NCBI GenBank assembly: GCA_037482015.1
Contig: JBBFKT010000013.1
Span: 1 to 39,357, forward strand
DNA: 39,357 nucleotides
From: Thermodesulforhabdaceae bacterium
GTDB taxonomy: Bacteria > Desulfobacterota > Syntrophobacteria > Syntrophobacterales > Thermodesulforhabdaceae
Direction of reading: 5' to 3'
The notes beneath the pieces were generated by a model. That model searched no databases. It worked only from the letters and a program-made list of their open reading frames with translations, and was not told where the DNA came from. The stretch's first letter is position 1. The number at the start of each line of letters is the position of its first letter. The translations under genes and the position numbers were made by a program. Of the stretch, positions 244-27,124 are shown one piece after another.

Positions 244-1779
244 ATGAATAAACTTCCTATAGGGATTCAGAGTTTTGAAGAAATAAGATCGGAAGATTAT
301 TACTACGTGGATAAAACTCGCTTTATTGAAAAGCTTGTCTGTGAAGGTAAATATTATTTTCTTTCTCGTCCTCGTCGTTTCGGTAAATCTTTGTTTCTGG
401 ACACTCTAAGGCAAGCCTTTCTTGGGAAAAGAGAGCTTTTCAAAGGACTTTATCTTTACGATCACTGGGACTGGAGTAAAAGTTATCCCGTAATTTATAT
501 AGACTTTGCTGAAGGGGTTATTGATTCCAAGGATGCACTGTCTAAGACAATTGAGTCGATTCTTCGGAGACACGGTAAGTCTTACGGTATAATCTACGAA
601 GAAGAACTCCTTAATCTTAGATTTAGAGAACTTATAGAAAAGGTTTCGGAAAAGTATGAAAGCAAAGTGGTCGTTCTAATAGACGAATACGACAAACCAA
701 TCTTGGACAGGATAGAAGATAAGGAAGCTGCTATTGAGATAAGGGAAGTCCTGAAGAATTTCTACGGTGTATTGAAACCCCTGGATGCCTATCTAAAGTT
801 TGTGTTTATTACTGGAGTATCAAAATTCAGCAAGGTATCTTTATTCAGCGGGTTGAATCAACTTCAGGATATCACCTTAAATCCCCGATATGGAAGCATA
901 TGCGGTTATACGCAGGGGGAGTTTGAAGAGGTTTTTTCAGAAAGGCTTTCAGGAGTTGATCTTGAAAAGGTCAGATGCTGGTATGATGGATATTCCTGGC
1001 TTGGAGAAAAGGTTTACAATCCCTTCGATATTCTTCTGTATCTTGCCGAAGGAGAATTTCGCCCCTACTGGTTTGAGACAGGAACACCGACGTTTTTGAT
1101 AAAGCTTATGTTTGAAAACCGGTTTTATCTTCCTGAAGTAGAGACACTTGATGCGGGAGAAAAACTGATAGGGAGCTTTGATATAGATGAGATTTATCCA
1201 GAGAATTTGATGTTTCAGACGGGATATTTGACCATAGCCGGCAAGGAATGGAGAGATACAGGGGCTCTTTACTTTTTGAAGTTTCCGAACAAGGAAGTTA
1301 GGGTAAGCTTTAACGATCATCTTTTGTCGTATTACACGAAGGCTCCCCGGCAGGTTGAGAGGAACAAAGGGTTTCTTAAGGAAGCTGTAGCAAAGAACGA
1401 TTTTGATTCGGTCAGGAAGATCTTTCATAGCTTTTTCTCAAGTATTCCACACGATTGGTACAGGCGAAACGACATAGGGGGGTATGAGGGATATTATGCA
1501 AGTGTAGTGTATGCCTATTTTTGCGCCAGCGGATTTGATGTGGTGGTGGAAGACGCAACAAGCGCAGGAAAGATAGACATGACAGTTTTCTATGGGGATA
1601 AGGTTTACATTATGGAATTCAAGGTTGTTGAGCTGGAGGGGGGGAAGGCCCTTAGTCAGCTAAAAGAAAAGAAATACTGGGAAAAATATGCAGACGGTTC
1701 AAGAAAGATATATCTTCTTGGGATTGAATTTAGCCGAGAAAGCAGAAACATTGTGGGTTCTGATGTTGAAGAAGTGTAG
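244..1779 (+). CDS. AAA-ATPase-like protein with C-terminal PD-(D/E)XK nuclease domain
   Basis: A complete protein of 511 residues. The N-terminus LPIGIQSFEEIR followed by YYYVDKT is the family hallmark. A P-loop-like RPRRFGKS sits near residue 43 and a Walker-B-like VVVLIDEYDK near residue 144. The last 80 residues hold the PD-(D/E)XK core: Asp in GKIDMTVFYG, then IMEFKV with E-x-K. Such proteins occur in many copies in some genomes and are often annotated only as ATPases; a nuclease or mobile-element-related role is suspected but unproven. The C-terminal 230 bp are nearly identical to the fragment at 2-235 and to the minus-strand fragment at 39123-39356. The start is the ATG at 244, at the family's usual N-terminus. 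The family call is firm and the function unknown. Confidence 0.9.
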   Translation: MNKLPIGIQSFEEIRSEDYYYVDKTRFIEKLVCEGKYYFLSRPRRFGKSLFLDTLRQAFLGKRELFKGLYLYDHWDWSKSYPVIYIDFAEGVIDSKDALSKTIESILRRHGKSYGIIYEEELLNLRFRELIEKVSEKYESKVVVLIDEYDKPILDRIEDKEAAIEIREVLKNFYGVLKPLDAYLKFVFITGVSKFSKVSLFSGLNQLQDITLNPRYGSICGYTQGEFEEVFSERLSGVDLEKVRCWYDGYSWLGEKVYNPFDILLYLAEGEFRPYWFETGTPTFLIKLMFENRFYLPEVETLDAGEKLIGSFDIDEIYPENLMFQTGYLTIAGKEWRDTGALYFLKFPNKEVRVSFNDHLLSYYTKAPRQVERNKGFLKEAVAKNDFDSVRKIFHSFFSSIPHDWYRRNDIGGYEGYYASVVYAYFCASGFDVVVEDATSAGKIDMTVFYGDKVYIMEFKVVELEGGKALSQLKEKKYWEKYADGSRKIYLLGIEFSRESRNIVGSDVEEV

Positions 1780-16234: not shown

Positions 16235-16275
16235 AATGGTAGCTTCCTAGCGATAGGGGGAGCTACCATTTTTGT
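16235..16275 (+). terminator. Intrinsic terminator between the two pilin genes
   Basis: The stem AATGGTAGCT / AGCTACCATT is perfect over 10 bp with a 16-base loop that can pair further, and is followed by a run of five T. It would stop most transcripts after pilA and let a fraction read into the second pilin. Confidence 0.85.
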
Positions 16276-16292
16276 ATAAAAAAGGAGTTTTT

Positions 16293-16787
16293 ATGAGCCA
16301 GCAACGAGGCTTTTCTCTTATAGAACTCCTGGTTGTTATGGCAATCATTGCTATCCTGGCTGCTGTTGGAACTACTCAGTATATGAAATATATTGCCAAC
16401 TCCCGCTATGCCAGGCTTGAAAGCACTCTGAAGCAAATGATGCTTGTGGCTGAGGATTTTTATAGTGAATTTAACAGATATCCTAATGGTGTCTGCGATG
16501 CAACTGCATCAAGTGTTGATAAGGTATGTTGGGTTGATGCTTCCGGTTCTATAGTAACTTCTTCAGGTAGTTACAGTTTTAAGATTCCTCCGCTTGTAAG
16601 GATTACTTTTACACCAGCCGGATCGGCTTCAATCCAAATTACGTTGGAAAGTTCTTCTAAGGTTCTGCGAAATTTTGCAAAAAATGGTGGTGCTAAGCTG
16701 GTGTTTGATTCCAGAACATCAACCAGTGATATTGCCTGTTATGATGATGAAATCCACGGTAAGGGTGGAGCAACAGGTTGTCCATAA
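16293..16787 (+). CDS. Second type IV pilin-like protein
   Basis: The protein has 164 residues from the ATG at 16293, placed by AAAGGAG five bases upstream; an in-frame ATG at 16272 overlaps the terminator and lacks a ribosome site. The leader MSQQRG precedes FSLIELLVVMAIIAILAAVGTTQY, with Glu at +5. The helix is close to that of the first pilin, including QYMKYIAN, but the C-terminal domain is different and has four cysteines. It may be a minor or alternative shaft subunit. Its stop overlaps the next ATG in TAATG, so it is translationally coupled to the membrane glycosyltransferase. Confidence 0.9.
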   Translation: MSQQRGFSLIELLVVMAIIAILAAVGTTQYMKYIANSRYARLESTLKQMMLVAEDFYSEFNRYPNGVCDATASSVDKVCWVDASGSIVTSSGSYSFKIPPLVRITFTPAGSASIQITLESSSKVLRNFAKNGGAKLVFDSRTSTSDIACYDDEIHGKGGATGCP

Positions 16788-21411: not shown

Positions 21412-22668
21412 GTGGATAAACTCGTTATAGAAGGAGGCAAGTCTCTTGAAGGAACCGTTCCTATAAGTGGAGCAAAGAATGCAGTTCTACCGCTCATGGC
21501 TTCCACTATACTTGCTCCTGGTGTTCATCGTTTTGAAAATGTTCCTCGTCTAAGAGATGTTAAAACCATGATGAGTCTTCTAGAATTTATGGGGGCTGAA
21601 ACGTCCCTGGATGATAGCGGAAACCTTCTCATTGACTCATCTAGGCTTAATAATCTAGAAGCTCCCTATGATTTGGTTAAGACTATGCGTGCTTCTGTGC
21701 TGGTGTTGGGTCCTCTTGTTGCCCGTTATGGTAGAGCTAGAGTATCCCTTCCTGGTGGGTGCGCTATTGGAGCTCGCCCTATCGATTTGCACATAAAGGC
21801 TCTTGAGTTGATGGGTGCTGACATAAACATAGAACACGGCTATGTAATCGCTGTTGCCGAAAGGCTCCGAGGAACAGTTTTCACCTTTGATCAGGTTACG
21901 GTAACAGGCACCGAGAATATACTCATGGCGGCAACACTAGCGGAAGGAACAACCGTTATTGAAAATGCCGCTCGAGAGCCAGAAGTTGTGGCGCTAGCGG
22001 AATATCTCAAATCTATGGGAGCAAAGATTCAAGGGGCAGGGTCTCATCAGATCATTGTTGAAGGTGTAGATAAACTCACGCCGTCCACCTGTGGGGTGAT
22101 TCCTGACAGGATTGAGATTGGGACTTATATGGTGGCTGCCGGTATAACCGGTGGACATCTCATTTTGAGTCCTTGCATTATTGAGCATGTAGAAGCTATC
22201 GTTAATAAATTAAAGCTTGCTGGCTTAAAAATCGAAGAGCGAAATAATGGTCTGGAAGTGTGGGGACCGGAATCGATCAAAAGTGTTGATGTCAAGACCT
22301 GGCCCTTTCCGGGATTTCCAACCGATATGCAGGCTCAATTCATGGCTTTGATGACCCTTGGATCCGGCGTTAGTGTGATAACAGAGCAGATTTTCGAGAA
22401 CAGATTTATGCATGTGCCTGAACTTAACCGCATGGGTGCCAAGATAAGGCTTGAGGGACGTAGTGCCATTGTTCAGGGAGTTAAGAAACTTACAGGAGCA
22501 CCGGTTATGGCGACAGATTTGCGAGCTTCGGCATCCCTTGTTCTTGCAGGGCTTGCCGCTAATGGCAGGACGGAAGTTAGTCGAGTCTATCATCTTGATC
22601 GAGGATACGAAAAACTTGATCAAAAGCTTGAAGCTGTGGGAGCGCGTATCAAACGCGTTAAAACGTAG
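21412..22668 (+). CDS. murA: UDP-N-acetylglucosamine 1-carboxyvinyltransferase
   Basis: The protein has 418 residues. It starts at a GTG at 21412 with GGAGGG upstream, giving [24 protein letters not shown], the standard MurA N-terminus with the active-site Lys. The catalytic Cys is C117 in [14 protein letters not shown]; enzymes with Asp here resist fosfomycin, so this one is the usual sensitive type. It catalyses the first committed step of peptidoglycan precursor synthesis. The 3' end overlaps the likely comEC start. Confidence 0.97.
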
Positions 22669-25252
22669 TTTAAGAAATCTTTCCCCTGGTGGTGCTCTAG
22701 GGTTTTCTTTTGTTCTAGGTCTCTACCTTACCGACATAATACCCCTTTTTACGATTTTTCTAATTGCCTTATTGTGCCTTGCCTTCTGGGCGATAATCCG
22801 CTTTAGACAATATAAATTGGAATTTTTCGTCATATGTCTGATTATATTTAGTTTCATTGCTGGAATAGGGTATCGGTATCTTCAGACTCAGATGGCCGAG
22901 AAAGATGTTGAGAATTTTAAAGAGTTCATGCAAGTTCTTGGATTTCCTAATCAAGTTCGGTGGGAAGGCTCTATTGATAGTTTCATTGAAAAATATCCCG
23001 ATAAAATACGCTTCGTTGCTAGAGTAGAAAAAATCCTGGATGGAAACGAGGCCAGCAAATTCCTTGAAGATGGAATATTCAAACCGAAGCTTTACGTTTT
23101 TGTGAAAAATCCGGATAGACGCTGGAAATACGGTGAAAAGTTTATTGCGGTAAGCTCTATACAGGAGTCGAAAAATTTCAGAAATCCAACTCCACCATCT
23201 CATCAGGATTTTCAAAAGATAAAGTTCTGGAAGGGCATTTACGGTGTATCTTTCATAGATGGGAAGGAAATTATCACTCTGAATGACGAATATAGGTCAC
23301 TTTATGTTCGTTTCCTGCAATGGATAGATGAACAAAGGCAGGCTTTTTCTGATTATCTGGATCGGACTATATCATATCCAGAGAGTGCTTTCCTTAAGGC
23401 TCTGACGGTTGGTTATAGAAGGTTTATCAGTGATGAATGGAATGAGTTTACAAGTCGTGCTGGAGTCCAGCATCTACTTGCCATTTCGGGGCTACATTTA
23501 GCTTCCGTAGCTGTTTTATTGTTTTTTCTGGTGAGATGGGGGCTTAAGAATATCGCTCCAGGGTTATTTCTTTTCATTCCGGAACCCGTGCTTTCTGCTT
23601 TAATTTCGCTCCCTGTCGTGGCTTGTTACGCTGTTTTAGCCGGTCTTGCCGCCCCAACTCAAAGATCGCTTATAGCTGTGGGATTCATAAGTTTTGGATT
23701 GCTTTTATTTAGAAAAATAGACTTTTTTACAATTTTTTCCCTTGCCGCCATGATGATACTTATTACGGATCTGTCCTTGCTTTATTCTCCGTCTTTTGCG
23801 CTTTCCTTTGCAGCAGTGGCTGGTATTACATGGGTGGCCATGGTGTTGAGACCTATGGGAGAAAACGGATATCTTTGGGCAGGAGGCTCAGAACCTGATC
23901 AGGGACGTTTGGTAAAGTTGCTAATTGGGACGAGGAGAGTTCTTTTTGATATTTTTTGGGTAAGCCTGTGTGTGCAAGTTGTTCTGTGTCCGCTGGTAAT
24001 CTACTTTTTCTTCAGGTTTTCCTGGGCTGGATTGATAGCAAACGTTGCGCTTGTTCCTTACGTGAGCCTTTTCGTGGTTCCAGTGGGACTTGCTGTTCTT
24101 GTTGGTTTCTTGGTGAGTCAGGTCATAAGCGATATTTTTGTCGGTATCGCAAAGTTTTTGATCAAGGTAATGATTGGGCTAATAAAGTTTTTTGGGAACT
24201 GGAATGAGCTTGTTTTTTGGGGAACTCCATGGACGTCATCTCCAGTAGTAGCAAAGTTATGGATCATTTGCTATTGGATCGGACTGGCTTTGGCTGTTGT
24301 AACACTTAAAAGAAGAAAATCGCCGATTTTATTGACGATGATTATACTTGCTCTAATTTCAGCATCTTATCAGGGTTTAATTGCTGTCACGGAGCGAAAG
24401 GAAGGGGGTACACTTGAAGCAATTGTGCTGGATGTGGGCGATGGAAGTAGCAACTTTATCGCTTTTCCAGATGGCAAGACAATGATTATAGACGGGGGAG
24501 GCATTCCCAAAAGCTCGATGGACATTGGATCTCGGATCATTGTTCCTGCTGTTATCGCCTTAGGTTTCAGGCATATAGATGATGTTGTTCTTTCTCATTA
24601 TCATTACGACCACGCAAAGGGGCTTGAATTTTTGCTTAATTCTTTTCCCGTAAGACGCTTTATAGAACCTTTATGTCCTCCGACACACGATGATGAATTT
24701 AGGTTGGTAAGCTTTGCCGCTTCAAGAAAAGTGTTTGTAATTCCATACCATAATGCAAACCAGATTAACAGTGACTTTGAAAAGGTAAATTTTCAGATTT
24801 TGTATCCTTCATTCGATGAGTTGAGTTCTACGTCCTTATGCAAGAATCTTAATAGATCTTCTACGGTTTATAAGGTTAGCTACGAAAAAACGGTTCTTGT
24901 AATTCCTTCTGATGCCACCCTGGATGTGCTTTATCAAATAAAATCAGACATTTCCAGGAAAGATAATGAAGTGCTTCTGCTAGTTGCGCCTCATCATGGA
25001 AGATGTGGATCTTTTGATGAATCTCTTTTTGATGAGATTTCTCCAGATGCTGTCATTATTTCGACAAAAAAATCCAAAAATGTGCCTTGTCCGGCCTTTA
25101 TTCAGTGGTGTAAGAAAAGAAATGTTCCTTGCTTTACGACTTTTGATAGCGGAGCCATAAGATCTATATCCAATGGAAAGTCCTGGGCTATTTACGGAAC
25201 CAGTGAGAAAGGCACGCCCTATTTGTTAAGTGTGATTTCTTATCGGCATTAG
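22562..25252 (+). CDS. comEC: ComEC/Rec2 family DNA uptake channel
   Basis: About 896 residues from the ATG at 22562, which overlaps murA by 107 bases. A TTG at 22628 is an alternative start, and the frame is open further upstream (TTG at 22451), so the N-terminus is uncertain. The order is: membrane helices, a DUF4131-like soluble domain, the Competence domain with many helices ([14 protein letters not shown] is its signature), and a C-terminal metallo-beta-lactamase domain with [12 protein letters not shown] and the metal motif HYHYDH. ComEC forms the inner-membrane channel for single-stranded DNA in natural transformation; the lactamase-like domain is thought to be a nuclease. A ComEA-like protein lies about 1.5 kb downstream. 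Confidence 0.93.
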
Positions 25253-25336
25253 AAAATTTTTCCGCTTTTTCTTAAATGGATAGAAAGTTTAGGAAAAGGT
25301 TGTCTTGGTGTAATAAGCTTAAGGGAGGATGTGAAA

Positions 25337-26188
25337 ATGCGCATTTATGGATTTGGCGATATTCATGGGAATGAGAAGGCTCTGGATGTTATTCTTAGAC
25401 ATATTGATACTGTAAAGCCTGATGAGGTTATATGTCTTGGGGATATCGTAGGATGGCTTCCCTGGGGTAGAAAAACTCTTGAAGTCATTACTAAAATGGG
25501 AATTCCTTCTGTCGCTGGGAATCATGATCTTATGGTGGCAGGGGTTTTCCCTGATTATAAGGATCAAATAGATAGAATGCAGGCAACAGCTTACACAGCC
25601 GGGACCCTAGCCGAATTTCCACAATTCTTGGAATATCTCGAATCTCTTCCGCTGGTTATAGAAAAAGAAACATGTGTGATCACTCACTTTAGCCCCTTTG
25701 ATTTACCCGAGGAAGGCACTTCGGTGTCTATTGAAAATTTCACATATCTTAGTGAAGAAAAACTTGGGGAATGTATCCCAAAGTGGAAAGACTTCTTGGT
25801 CCAAGTCATTATCACCGGACACGATCATCTACCCGCACTCTACGAATTTACTGAGAACGGACAGGTAAAGAAACATCCTATAAGGGCGAAAGACTCTGTG
25901 GCTGAAAGTAGTTCTACTTTTGCTGGTGGAATAATAGAAGAGAAGTTTGTGCTTAATGGTTCTAGTAAATATTGGATAAAAGCAGGGGCTGTAGGGGGAC
26001 CTTACAGGGACGGCGTGCCTATGGCAAACAGCGTTTTGTATGATGCCAACGAAGGAGTGATAAGCTTTTTTCGTATACCTTACGATGTATGGAACGTTGC
26101 CGAATCTTTGAGATTAAATAGACTATTCAGGAACATTGAAACCATTCAGCGTTTTGTCAGGACAGCCTATGCCTGGAATAAAAAATAA
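25337..26188 (+). CDS. Calcineurin-like metallophosphoesterase
   Basis: The protein has 283 residues from the ATG at 25337; GGGAGG ends 8 bases before it, while the GTG at 25331 is too close. Metal-binding motifs appear in order: GDIHGNE, CLGDIVGW, AGNHDL, ITHFS and TGHDHLP. The family covers phosphodiesterases and protein phosphatases; the substrate is unknown. It resembles the YfcE/ApaH-like group. It is followed by a hairpin and faces the minus-strand gene for the Lys-rich protein. Confidence 0.9.
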   Translation: MRIYGFGDIHGNEKALDVILRHIDTVKPDEVICLGDIVGWLPWGRKTLEVITKMGIPSVAGNHDLMVAGVFPDYKDQIDRMQATAYTAGTLAEFPQFLEYLESLPLVIEKETCVITHFSPFDLPEEGTSVSIENFTYLSEEKLGECIPKWKDFLVQVIITGHDHLPALYEFTENGQVKKHPIRAKDSVAESSSTFAGGIIEEKFVLNGSSKYWIKAGAVGGPYRDGVPMANSVLYDANEGVISFFRIPYDVWNVAESLRLNRLFRNIETIQRFVRTAYAWNKK

Positions 26189-26192
26189 ATGA

Positions 26193-26234
26193 GAAACTTC
26201 CCCTTCCCGAAGTTTGTGGAAAAGGGGAAGTTTC
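26193..26234. terminator. Hairpin between convergent genes
   Basis: GAAACTTCCCCTT and AAGGGGAAGTTTC are perfect complements over 13 bp around a 16-base loop, placed between the metallophosphoesterase and the Lys-rich gene. No strong T-run follows on the plus strand; a bidirectional terminator role is the simplest reading. Confidence 0.65.
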
Positions 26235-26275
26235 CTGAGAGAGGTGGGAAGATTATAAATTTAGGCTATTCTCGG

Positions 26276-26554
26276 TTACTTGGTTGTTGCTTTCTTGGCA
26301 GCGGGTTTCTTAGCTTTAGCTTTTTTTGCTTTAGCTTTTTTCACTTTCTTCTTGGCCTTCTTCACTTTCTTTTTGGTAACTTTCTTAGCGGGAGCCTGAG
26401 CTGGCACAGGGCTTAGTTGCTCGGATACACCTTGCTGCTGAACAGCCGGTGGTTGTCCTGCCGGTGCTGGAGGAGCCTGCTGCTCCTGAGCAAAAGATGC
26501 CCCATTAACCATGATAAAACTTGCTGCGATGAGTGCACTTAAGAACCTTTTCAT
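26276..26554 (-). CDS. Exported lysine-rich protein with histone-H1-like tail
   Basis: The protein has 92 residues. A clear signal peptide (MKRFLSALIAASFIMVNGASFA, then QEQ) is followed by a Pro/Ala/Gln linker of about 30 residues and a tail of about 37 residues in which Lys and Ala dominate (VTKKKVKKAKKK...). It has no recognised domain. Linker and tail start resemble the neighbouring ComEA-like protein, including QQAP...AVQQQ and KKVTKK, so the two genes look like partial duplicates. The basic tail would bind nucleic acid or other polyanions. The signal peptide places it outside the cytoplasm, unlike nucleoid proteins. An ATG with GGAGAACAAGGA upstream supports the start. Confidence 0.75.
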   Translation of the reverse strand: MKRFLSALIAASFIMVNGASFAQEQQAPPAPAGQPPAVQQQGVSEQLSPVPAQAPAKKVTKKKVKKAKKKVKKAKAKKAKAKKPAAKKATTK

Positions 26555-26610
26555 ATTCCTTGTTCTCCTCTCTAAAATTTATTCCGATTCCTCCCCGCCT
26601 CTCGGGAAAT

Positions 26611-26646
26611 AAAAGTGCTACTTCCTATTTTAGGAAGCAGCACTTT
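26611..26646 (-). terminator. Terminator between the ComEA-like gene and the Lys-rich gene
   Basis: Reading the minus strand, AAAGTGCT and CTTCCTA pair with TAGGAAG and AGCACTTT around a short loop, interrupted by one mismatch, then TTTTATTT follows. The two minus-strand genes are thus probably separate transcripts, or the second is expressed by read-through. Confidence 0.75.
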
Positions 26647-26656
26647 CGCTTATTTA

Positions 26657-27124
26657 TTACTGAACCACAACGTGGCTTTTAATAGCTTCAAATTTCTTCT
26701 TGGTAATGCCCTTTACCTTCATAAGATCTTCAGGTGCACTGAAAGGTCCGTTCTTTGTTCGATATTCAACAATTCTCTTGGCAAGAACTTTACCAATGCC
26801 AGGAAGTTTCTCAAGATCTTTCTCTGTAGCAGTGTTAATATTCACAGGTGCTGCAGCCTCTGCCGCCTTGGCCTTCTTGGTAACTTTCTTAGGAGCCGCT
26901 TCTTTCTTTTCAGGAGCAGCCGCTTTTTCATCTTTCTTCATTTCTTTAGGAGCAGATGCTGGCGGGGCTGCTGGTTGAGCTGGCTGAGCTGGTGCCTGTT
27001 GCTGAACTGCAGGTGCTGGCTGAGCTGCTGGCTGAGCTGGTGCCTGCTGATCAGCCGCAAATGAAATACCAACCGTTCCCATCAAAAAAACTGCTGCTAC
27101 GACTACTTTCAACCACTTGCTCAT
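26657..27124 (-). CDS. ComEA-like exported helix-hairpin-helix DNA-binding protein
   Basis: The protein has 155 residues. A signal peptide (through GISFAAD) is followed by a Pro/Ala/Gln-rich stretch to about residue 57, then a Lys/Glu/Ala stretch to about residue 92. The C-terminal 60 residues are a ComEA-type double helix-hairpin-helix: VNINTATEKDLEKLPGIGKVLAKRI and later LMKVKGITKKKFEAI. ComEA binds incoming double-stranded DNA in the periplasm and ratchets it towards ComEC. The extended low-complexity linker is unusual. AAAGGAGG precedes the ATG. A CTCAC-N7-GTGAG hairpin (27170-27186) lies in the upstream leader. Confidence 0.88.
   Translation of the reverse strand: MSKWLKVVVAAVFLMGTVGISFAADQQAPAQPAAQPAPAVQQQAPAQPAQPAAPPASAPKEMKKDEKAAAPEKKEAAPKKVTKKAKAAEAAAPVNINTATEKDLEKLPGIGKVLAKRIVEYRTKNGPFSAPEDLMKVKGITKKKFEAIKSHVVVQ

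Follow-up and report, generated by a model that had tools for sequence, protein, structure and literature searches.

A lysine-rich, putatively exported protein encoded beside a ComEA-like gene in one genus of the Thermodesulforhabdaceae

Introduction

ComEA has been described in V. cholerae (PMC3879209) and in Gram-positive bacteria (PMC9747964, PMC13168374). The condensation of DNA by ComEA itself has been measured for the Gram-positive form, in which the balance of DNA bridging is set by the length of the linker (PMC13168374). Gram-negative ComEA is without the oligomerisation domain by which the Gram-positive protein condenses DNA (PMC13168374).

Several Lys-rich proteins offer a second point of comparison. 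The Lys-Pro-Ala tail of HbhA, with its AKKA repeats, is both necessary and sufficient to bind DNA and binds sulphated glycoconjugates too, and the tails of HbhA and HupB bind DNA without sequence preference (PMC10665949). Among histone H1-like proteins, AlgP (PMC9239181) and Hc2 (PMC2848022) have Lys-rich repeat tails and are intracellular, AlgP being located at polyphosphate granules and Hc2 on chlamydial DNA. Asr is a periplasmic disordered chaperone which supports outer-membrane integrity (PMC10746267). No periplasmic Lys-rich or histone-like transformation factor was found in the open-licence literature.

Here, a gene for a 92-aa Lys-rich protein is described which lies next to a gene for a 155-aa ComEA-like protein in a Thermodesulforhabdaceae bacterium (Table 1). 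The window, that is the whole stretch of DNA analysed, comprises 39,357 nucleotides (assembly GCA_037482015.1, contig JBBFKT010000013.1).

Table 1. Features of the locus (positions in the window) and layout of the two proteins (residues).
Feature	Position	Strand	Basis or remark
comEC	22451..25252	(+), opposite to the pair	PF03772 (E=4.6e-48), DUF4131, Lactamase_B; only ComEC found in the genome
Metallophosphoesterase gene	25331..26188	(+)	between comEC and the pair
Terminator-like hairpin downstream of the Lys-rich gene	26180..26282	(-)	fold -26.2 kcal/mol, z -3.3
Lys-rich protein gene, 92 aa	26276..26554	(-)	ORF and sequence features
Lys-rich protein, signal peptide	residues 1-22		
Lys-rich protein, Pro/Ala/Gln linker	residues 23-56		
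Lys-rich protein, Lys/Ala tail	residues 57-92		
Terminator-like hairpin between the pair	26605..26660	(-)	17-bp stem, then T-rich run; fold -25 kcal/mol, z -7.8
ComEA-like protein gene, 155 aa	26657..27124	(-)	ORF, profile matches, AF2 model
ComEA-like protein, signal peptide	residues 1-23		
ComEA-like protein, Pro/Ala/Gln/Lys/Glu linker			68 aa
ComEA-like protein, HhH domain	residues 91-154		

The ComEA-like protein and competence genes

The 155-aa protein resembles ComEA in having a signal peptide and one C-terminal HhH domain. The ComEA helix-hairpin-helix which a first-pass annotation had placed at its end was confirmed by PF12836 (HHH_3; E=6.4e-25, 87.5 bits) and above cut-off by TIGR00426 (62.8 bits, cut-off 53.1). 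The cut-off of the comE subfamily model TIGR01259 was missed (71.4 bits vs 152.35, with only model positions 38-120 matched) and the protein is therefore named ComEA-like, outside that subfamily model. The AF2 model, with a pLDDT of 88-95 across residues 91-155, has a confident HhH behind a disordered stretch. Solved chains matched by the sequence are 8dss, 8dfk and 2duy, its nearest solved relatives by sequence including Gram-positive ComEA and the Thermus ComEA-related 2DUY. The protein most likely acts as ComEA does, as a periplasmic DNA receptor for uptake.

It differs from ComEA in its linker, which is composed of Pro/Ala/Gln first and Lys/Glu after and is longer than that of all 21 ComEA-like proteins measured in the other genera of the phylum. 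When counted from the hydrophobic core to the HhH, the linkers of the genus are the longest of 23 ComEA-like sequences, at 67-75 residues vs 7-44 in the others. In Gram-positive ComEA, the effect of the linker on bridging needs an oligomerisation domain, and none was seen in the ComEA-like protein of the genus.

DprA, PilQ and PilT are present in the genome besides ComEC, and likewise in four relatives of the family. Elsewhere in the window, at 10-24 kb from the pair, are genes for type IV pili, one of them PilY1-like. On account of DprA, PilQ, PilT and the type IV pilus genes, natural transformation of the organism is plausible, and equally so for relatives which are without the Lys-rich protein. 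A type IV pilin-like ORF at 16272-16787 (+) gave a weak match to ComP_DUS (DNA-uptake-sequence receptor pilin), with 21.7 bits being below the cut-off of 27.3.

The Lys-rich gene and its product

The 92-aa ORF is a real gene, as indicated by a syntenic orthologue in the sister species (G001, the sole other genome of the genus compared) and by a substitution pattern of purifying selection, which together ruled out a spurious ORF. Both genes of the pair are intact in the sister, in the same position and orientation between the phosphoesterase gene and znuA. The two Lys-rich orthologues are 71% identical, with 12, 13 and 45 differences at codon positions 1, 2 and 3, respectively, a dN of 0.15 (0.08 in the conserved segment and tail) and a saturated dS. 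The start, RBS, reading frame and export signal are preserved and EQLxPVPAQAPAKK is conserved in the linker of the two orthologues; in the tail, neither the number nor the order of the residues is the same in both species. The gene is under purifying selection.

Both minus-strand ORFs are preceded by an RBS-like purine run. Inspection by eye and a simple hydropathy rule indicate a Sec-type signal peptide ending in SFA at the start of both products, in line with the signal peptides that had been proposed for them. In the Lys-rich protein, the segment between the Pro/Ala/Gln linker and the tail reads EQLSPVPAQAPAKK. The tail had been described as almost only Lys and Ala, and of its 36 residues 21 are Lys and 8 are Ala; the mature protein would have a net charge of about +19 across 70 aa. 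Maximum Lys density reaches 20-21 per 40 residues in the two orthologues, and other ORFs of at least 60 aa, in the window and in 19 kb from the sister, do not exceed 11. The motif AKKA occurs two and six times, and KKAK three and five times, in the two orthologues. The mean hydropathy of 0.37 places the protein well on the disordered side of the fold boundary, which is 0.51 for its charge. Its AF2 model consists of a helix at residues 2-25 (the signal peptide), a low-confidence middle and a lone helix at residues 61-81, with no fold apart from these single helices. No lipobox, structural anchor or HhH was found in the window protein.

The best family match of the Lys-rich protein is to Asr (NF033636), with E=6.7e-4 and 20.4 bits in the window and E=4.3e-6 and 27.5 bits in the sister. 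Membership was rejected as both scores are below the curated cut-off of 50. The mature part alone gave no match to the Asr profile, and the scrambled controls for the match were hand-written and approximate rather than exact permutations. The likeness therefore consists of a weak whole-length match and a common build, namely a signal peptide (exported by sequence) followed by a repetitive, basic, low-complexity and disordered protein of similar length. Asr is an acid-shock protein, and no link to acid is known for the Lys-rich protein. As a periplasmic chaperone, Asr shows that DNA is not necessarily the target of an exported polycation.

The Lys/Ala (AKKA) repeat tail is a feature of histone H1-like proteins, and the earlier description of the protein as histone H1-like stands as far as composition goes; the same composition also fits the binding of LPS, polyphosphate, peptidoglycan or proteins. 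AlgP and Hc2 have a similar tail, with the number of repeats in Hc2 being variable too, but the Lys-rich protein differs from these intracellular proteins in carrying an export signal. It shares AKKA/AAKK repeats with HbhA and HupB; HbhA, however, belongs to another phylum and has a coiled-coil domain, whereas the Lys-rich protein is short and has a cleavable-type signal peptide.

Origin and arrangement of the pair

The two genes had been suggested to be partial duplicates, and this was examined with 1000 segment-preserving shuffles in which local composition is kept. In the window species, the signal peptides of the pair scored 40 against 18 ± 4 when shuffled (0/1000 as high) and the mature parts 117 against 90 ± 9 (9/1000). 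The signal peptides of the sister pair were above chance, weakly (17/1000), and its mature parts were not (137/1000). Two cross-species comparisons of the N-termini agree with the picture within species. The suggestion is thus upheld for the signal peptides, which are alike beyond chance in both species, and not for the QQAP..AVQQQ and KKVTKK matches, which are absent from the sister pair. Being peculiar to the window species, these matches could have arisen by gene conversion or by chance in low-complexity sequence. A common N-terminal origin of the two genes is plausible. The N-terminus of the Lys-rich protein may derive from the adjoining comEA-like gene via partial tandem duplication, which by itself would account for the two genes being neighbours.

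The hairpin between the pair is absent in the sister species by alignment, where 44 bp separate comEA from the Lys-rich gene behind it, both on one strand in an operon-like layout. The pair looks co-transcribed in the sister and at least partly uncoupled in the window species. As the hairpin is present in the one and missing in the other, regulation of the pair may differ between the species.

The first-pass annotation had put ComEC about 1.5 kb from the pair, and comEC was located 1.0 kb from the Lys-rich gene and 1.4 kb from comEA, with the phosphoesterase gene between. As listed, the comEC ORF shares its first 218 bases (22451-22668 (+)) with the end of murA. Its sister counterpart begins at a TTG and overlaps murA by ~40 bases, a comparison which puts the true start probably downstream of the listed one, near the murA end. 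The pair most likely arrived at its present site within the lineage of the genus, because the other three genera of the family keep comEC and the phosphoesterase gene together without the pair and have their ComEA-like genes on other contigs. A conserved comEA-comEC neighbourhood was rejected on the basis of these different contigs. The gene order from prfA to aroB is common to both genomes of the genus, and since the whole order is shared, the conserved adjacency of the pair represents one event.

Distribution among relatives

ComEA-like HhH matches were found in 54 of 60 relatives; some of the weakest belong to large proteins, probably Tex, whose HhH regions lie in open frames of 700-800 aa. 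The Lys-rich protein was found in 2/2 genomes of the genus, with no comparable score in any other. A profile search from the two orthologues across 56 genomes of the class returned those two and one marginal match (G054, E=0.007), which lies in the signal-peptide region of a different ORF. Outside the genus, the ComEA neighbourhoods of 80 named loci (flanks of up to 8 kb) and of 28 relatives were without an exported polycation of this build, the few other filter matches near ComEA being ORFs without the build, several of them on G+C-rich contigs. For the reverse test, a DNA pattern for KKAKKAK tails was used and the ComEA HhH motif was sought within ~1.5 kb on each side. Exported KKAKKAK-tailed proteins of like build were identified in 4 of 54 other genomes of the class (G016, G032, G035, G036), and the reading of 30 loci from across the phylum added 10 further genomes; the ComEA motif was within that distance in none of the 14.

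A general linkage of ComEA and polycation was consequently rejected, none being seen outside the genus in the forward or the reverse test. General co-occurrence of the Lys-rich gene with ComEA genes, put forward earlier as a test, is not supported, given the presence of the former in one genus vs the near-universal occurrence of the latter. Within the genus, both genomes keep the two genes of the pair as neighbours, which agrees with the earlier proposal, but in the family's other genera comEC is unlinked to comEA. Judged by its predicted layout, the Lys-rich protein is a genus-restricted example of a build (signal peptide, low-complexity linker and KKAKKAK tail) which is widespread in the phylum.

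Some further genes were recorded during these searches. The tailed proteins from the wider phylum include small lipoproteins with the lipobox LGGAGC, an Ala-rich stretch and a terminal KKAKKAK-type tail, which occur in several genomes belonging to a single family (L179, L181-L185); the one searched against Pfam gave no match. A different family of the order has another pair of exported basic proteins, not beside ComEA (L142 5728-7048 and L143 2023-3505). One of these is Lys-rich, its neighbour has a Gln/Pro/Ala linker, and selA- and mfd-like genes are close by. ORFs of ~310 aa with two to three tandem ComEA-type HhH matches were found at G021:C46:23759-24571, G023:C107:43044-43853 and G025:C145:20328-20903. 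The ORF at 244-1779 (+) in the window and that at L036 1672-3246 (-) look related, starting with KLPIGIQxFxEI...YVDKTxF, and possibly belong to a multi-copy family; the latter directly adjoins a ComEA-like gene in another genus of the family.

Possible roles of the Lys-rich protein

The reading preferred here, with a probability of roughly 0.5, is that the Lys-rich protein is a Sec-exported, mostly disordered polycation of the envelope or periplasm which binds anionic polymers non-specifically. It builds on the ORF and its composition, on the orthologue in the sister species and on the lack of any detected linkage to ComEA elsewhere; from sequence we infer export, disorder, location and ligand. 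Following Sec export, the protein would stay in the periplasm or envelope, where its disordered and strongly positive tail would bind anionic polymers, incoming DNA being one possible ligand. The same-strand spacing of 44 bp in the sister suggests some shared role with comEA, which counts against so general a reading.

The main alternative, and the proposal of the first-pass annotation, is a DNA-condensing partner in uptake. The Lys-rich and ComEA-like proteins would together coat incoming periplasmic DNA, neutralise and condense it and block its back-sliding through the secretin, with ComEC importing it. This is tentative and, on balance, somewhat unlikely. Both proteins look exported, one has the HhH domain, and the genes are adjacent in both genomes of the genus, closely so in the sister. 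However, this adjacency is a single event under the shared gene order, tandem duplication alone would place the genes side by side, and a terminator-like hairpin separates them in the window. The genome has comEC, DprA, PilQ and PilT, and genes for type IV pili lie in the window too, but relatives without the Lys-rich protein equally possess the other competence genes, and comEC is unlinked to comEA in the rest of the family. Since Gram-negative ComEA is without the oligomerisation domain (PMC13168374), there would be work for a condensing factor of its own. AKKA-type tails are necessary and sufficient for DNA binding in HbhA (PMC10665949), and the ComEA linker of the genus is the longest of those measured; against this, the protein is confined to one genus while ComEA-like HhH matches are nearly universal, no such ORF accompanies ComEA in the loci and relatives surveyed, and other exported Lys-rich proteins are not near it. 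A role in DNA uptake is thus possible but unproven. The fuller suggestion, unlikely as it stands, is that uptake in the genus uses two exported DNA-binders of shared N-terminal origin, a long-linker ComEA and a detached polycation, which would supply the DNA condensation that a Gram-negative ComEA probably does not achieve alone.

It is more doubtful that the protein is an envelope anchor or surface protein, an adhesin or stabiliser whose Lys/Ala tail would stick to peptidoglycan, LPS or outside polyanions (mineral, polysaccharide or extracellular DNA). The same tail ends the small lipobox lipoproteins mentioned above, an envelope setting, but the window protein has neither lipobox nor structural anchor; the HbhA tail also binds sulphated glycoconjugates (PMC10665949), but a ligand cannot be read from the tail alone. 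Finally, a chance or non-functional remnant, formed from a duplicated comEA N-terminus and a Lys/Ala tract grown by slippage, would explain the differing tails and the variable N-terminal motifs common to the pair, but is highly improbable in view of the low dN with saturated synonymous sites, the conserved EQLxPVPAQAPAKK and the retention of frame, start, RBS and export signal.

Significance

The general point at present is that short exported Lys/Ala-tailed proteins recur in the phylum, those tested matching no curated family above its cut-off. If the role in uptake is true, DNA in the periplasm would be condensed by a factor distinct from ComEA, which would bear on the way in which DNA is drawn through the outer membrane of Gram-negative bacteria.
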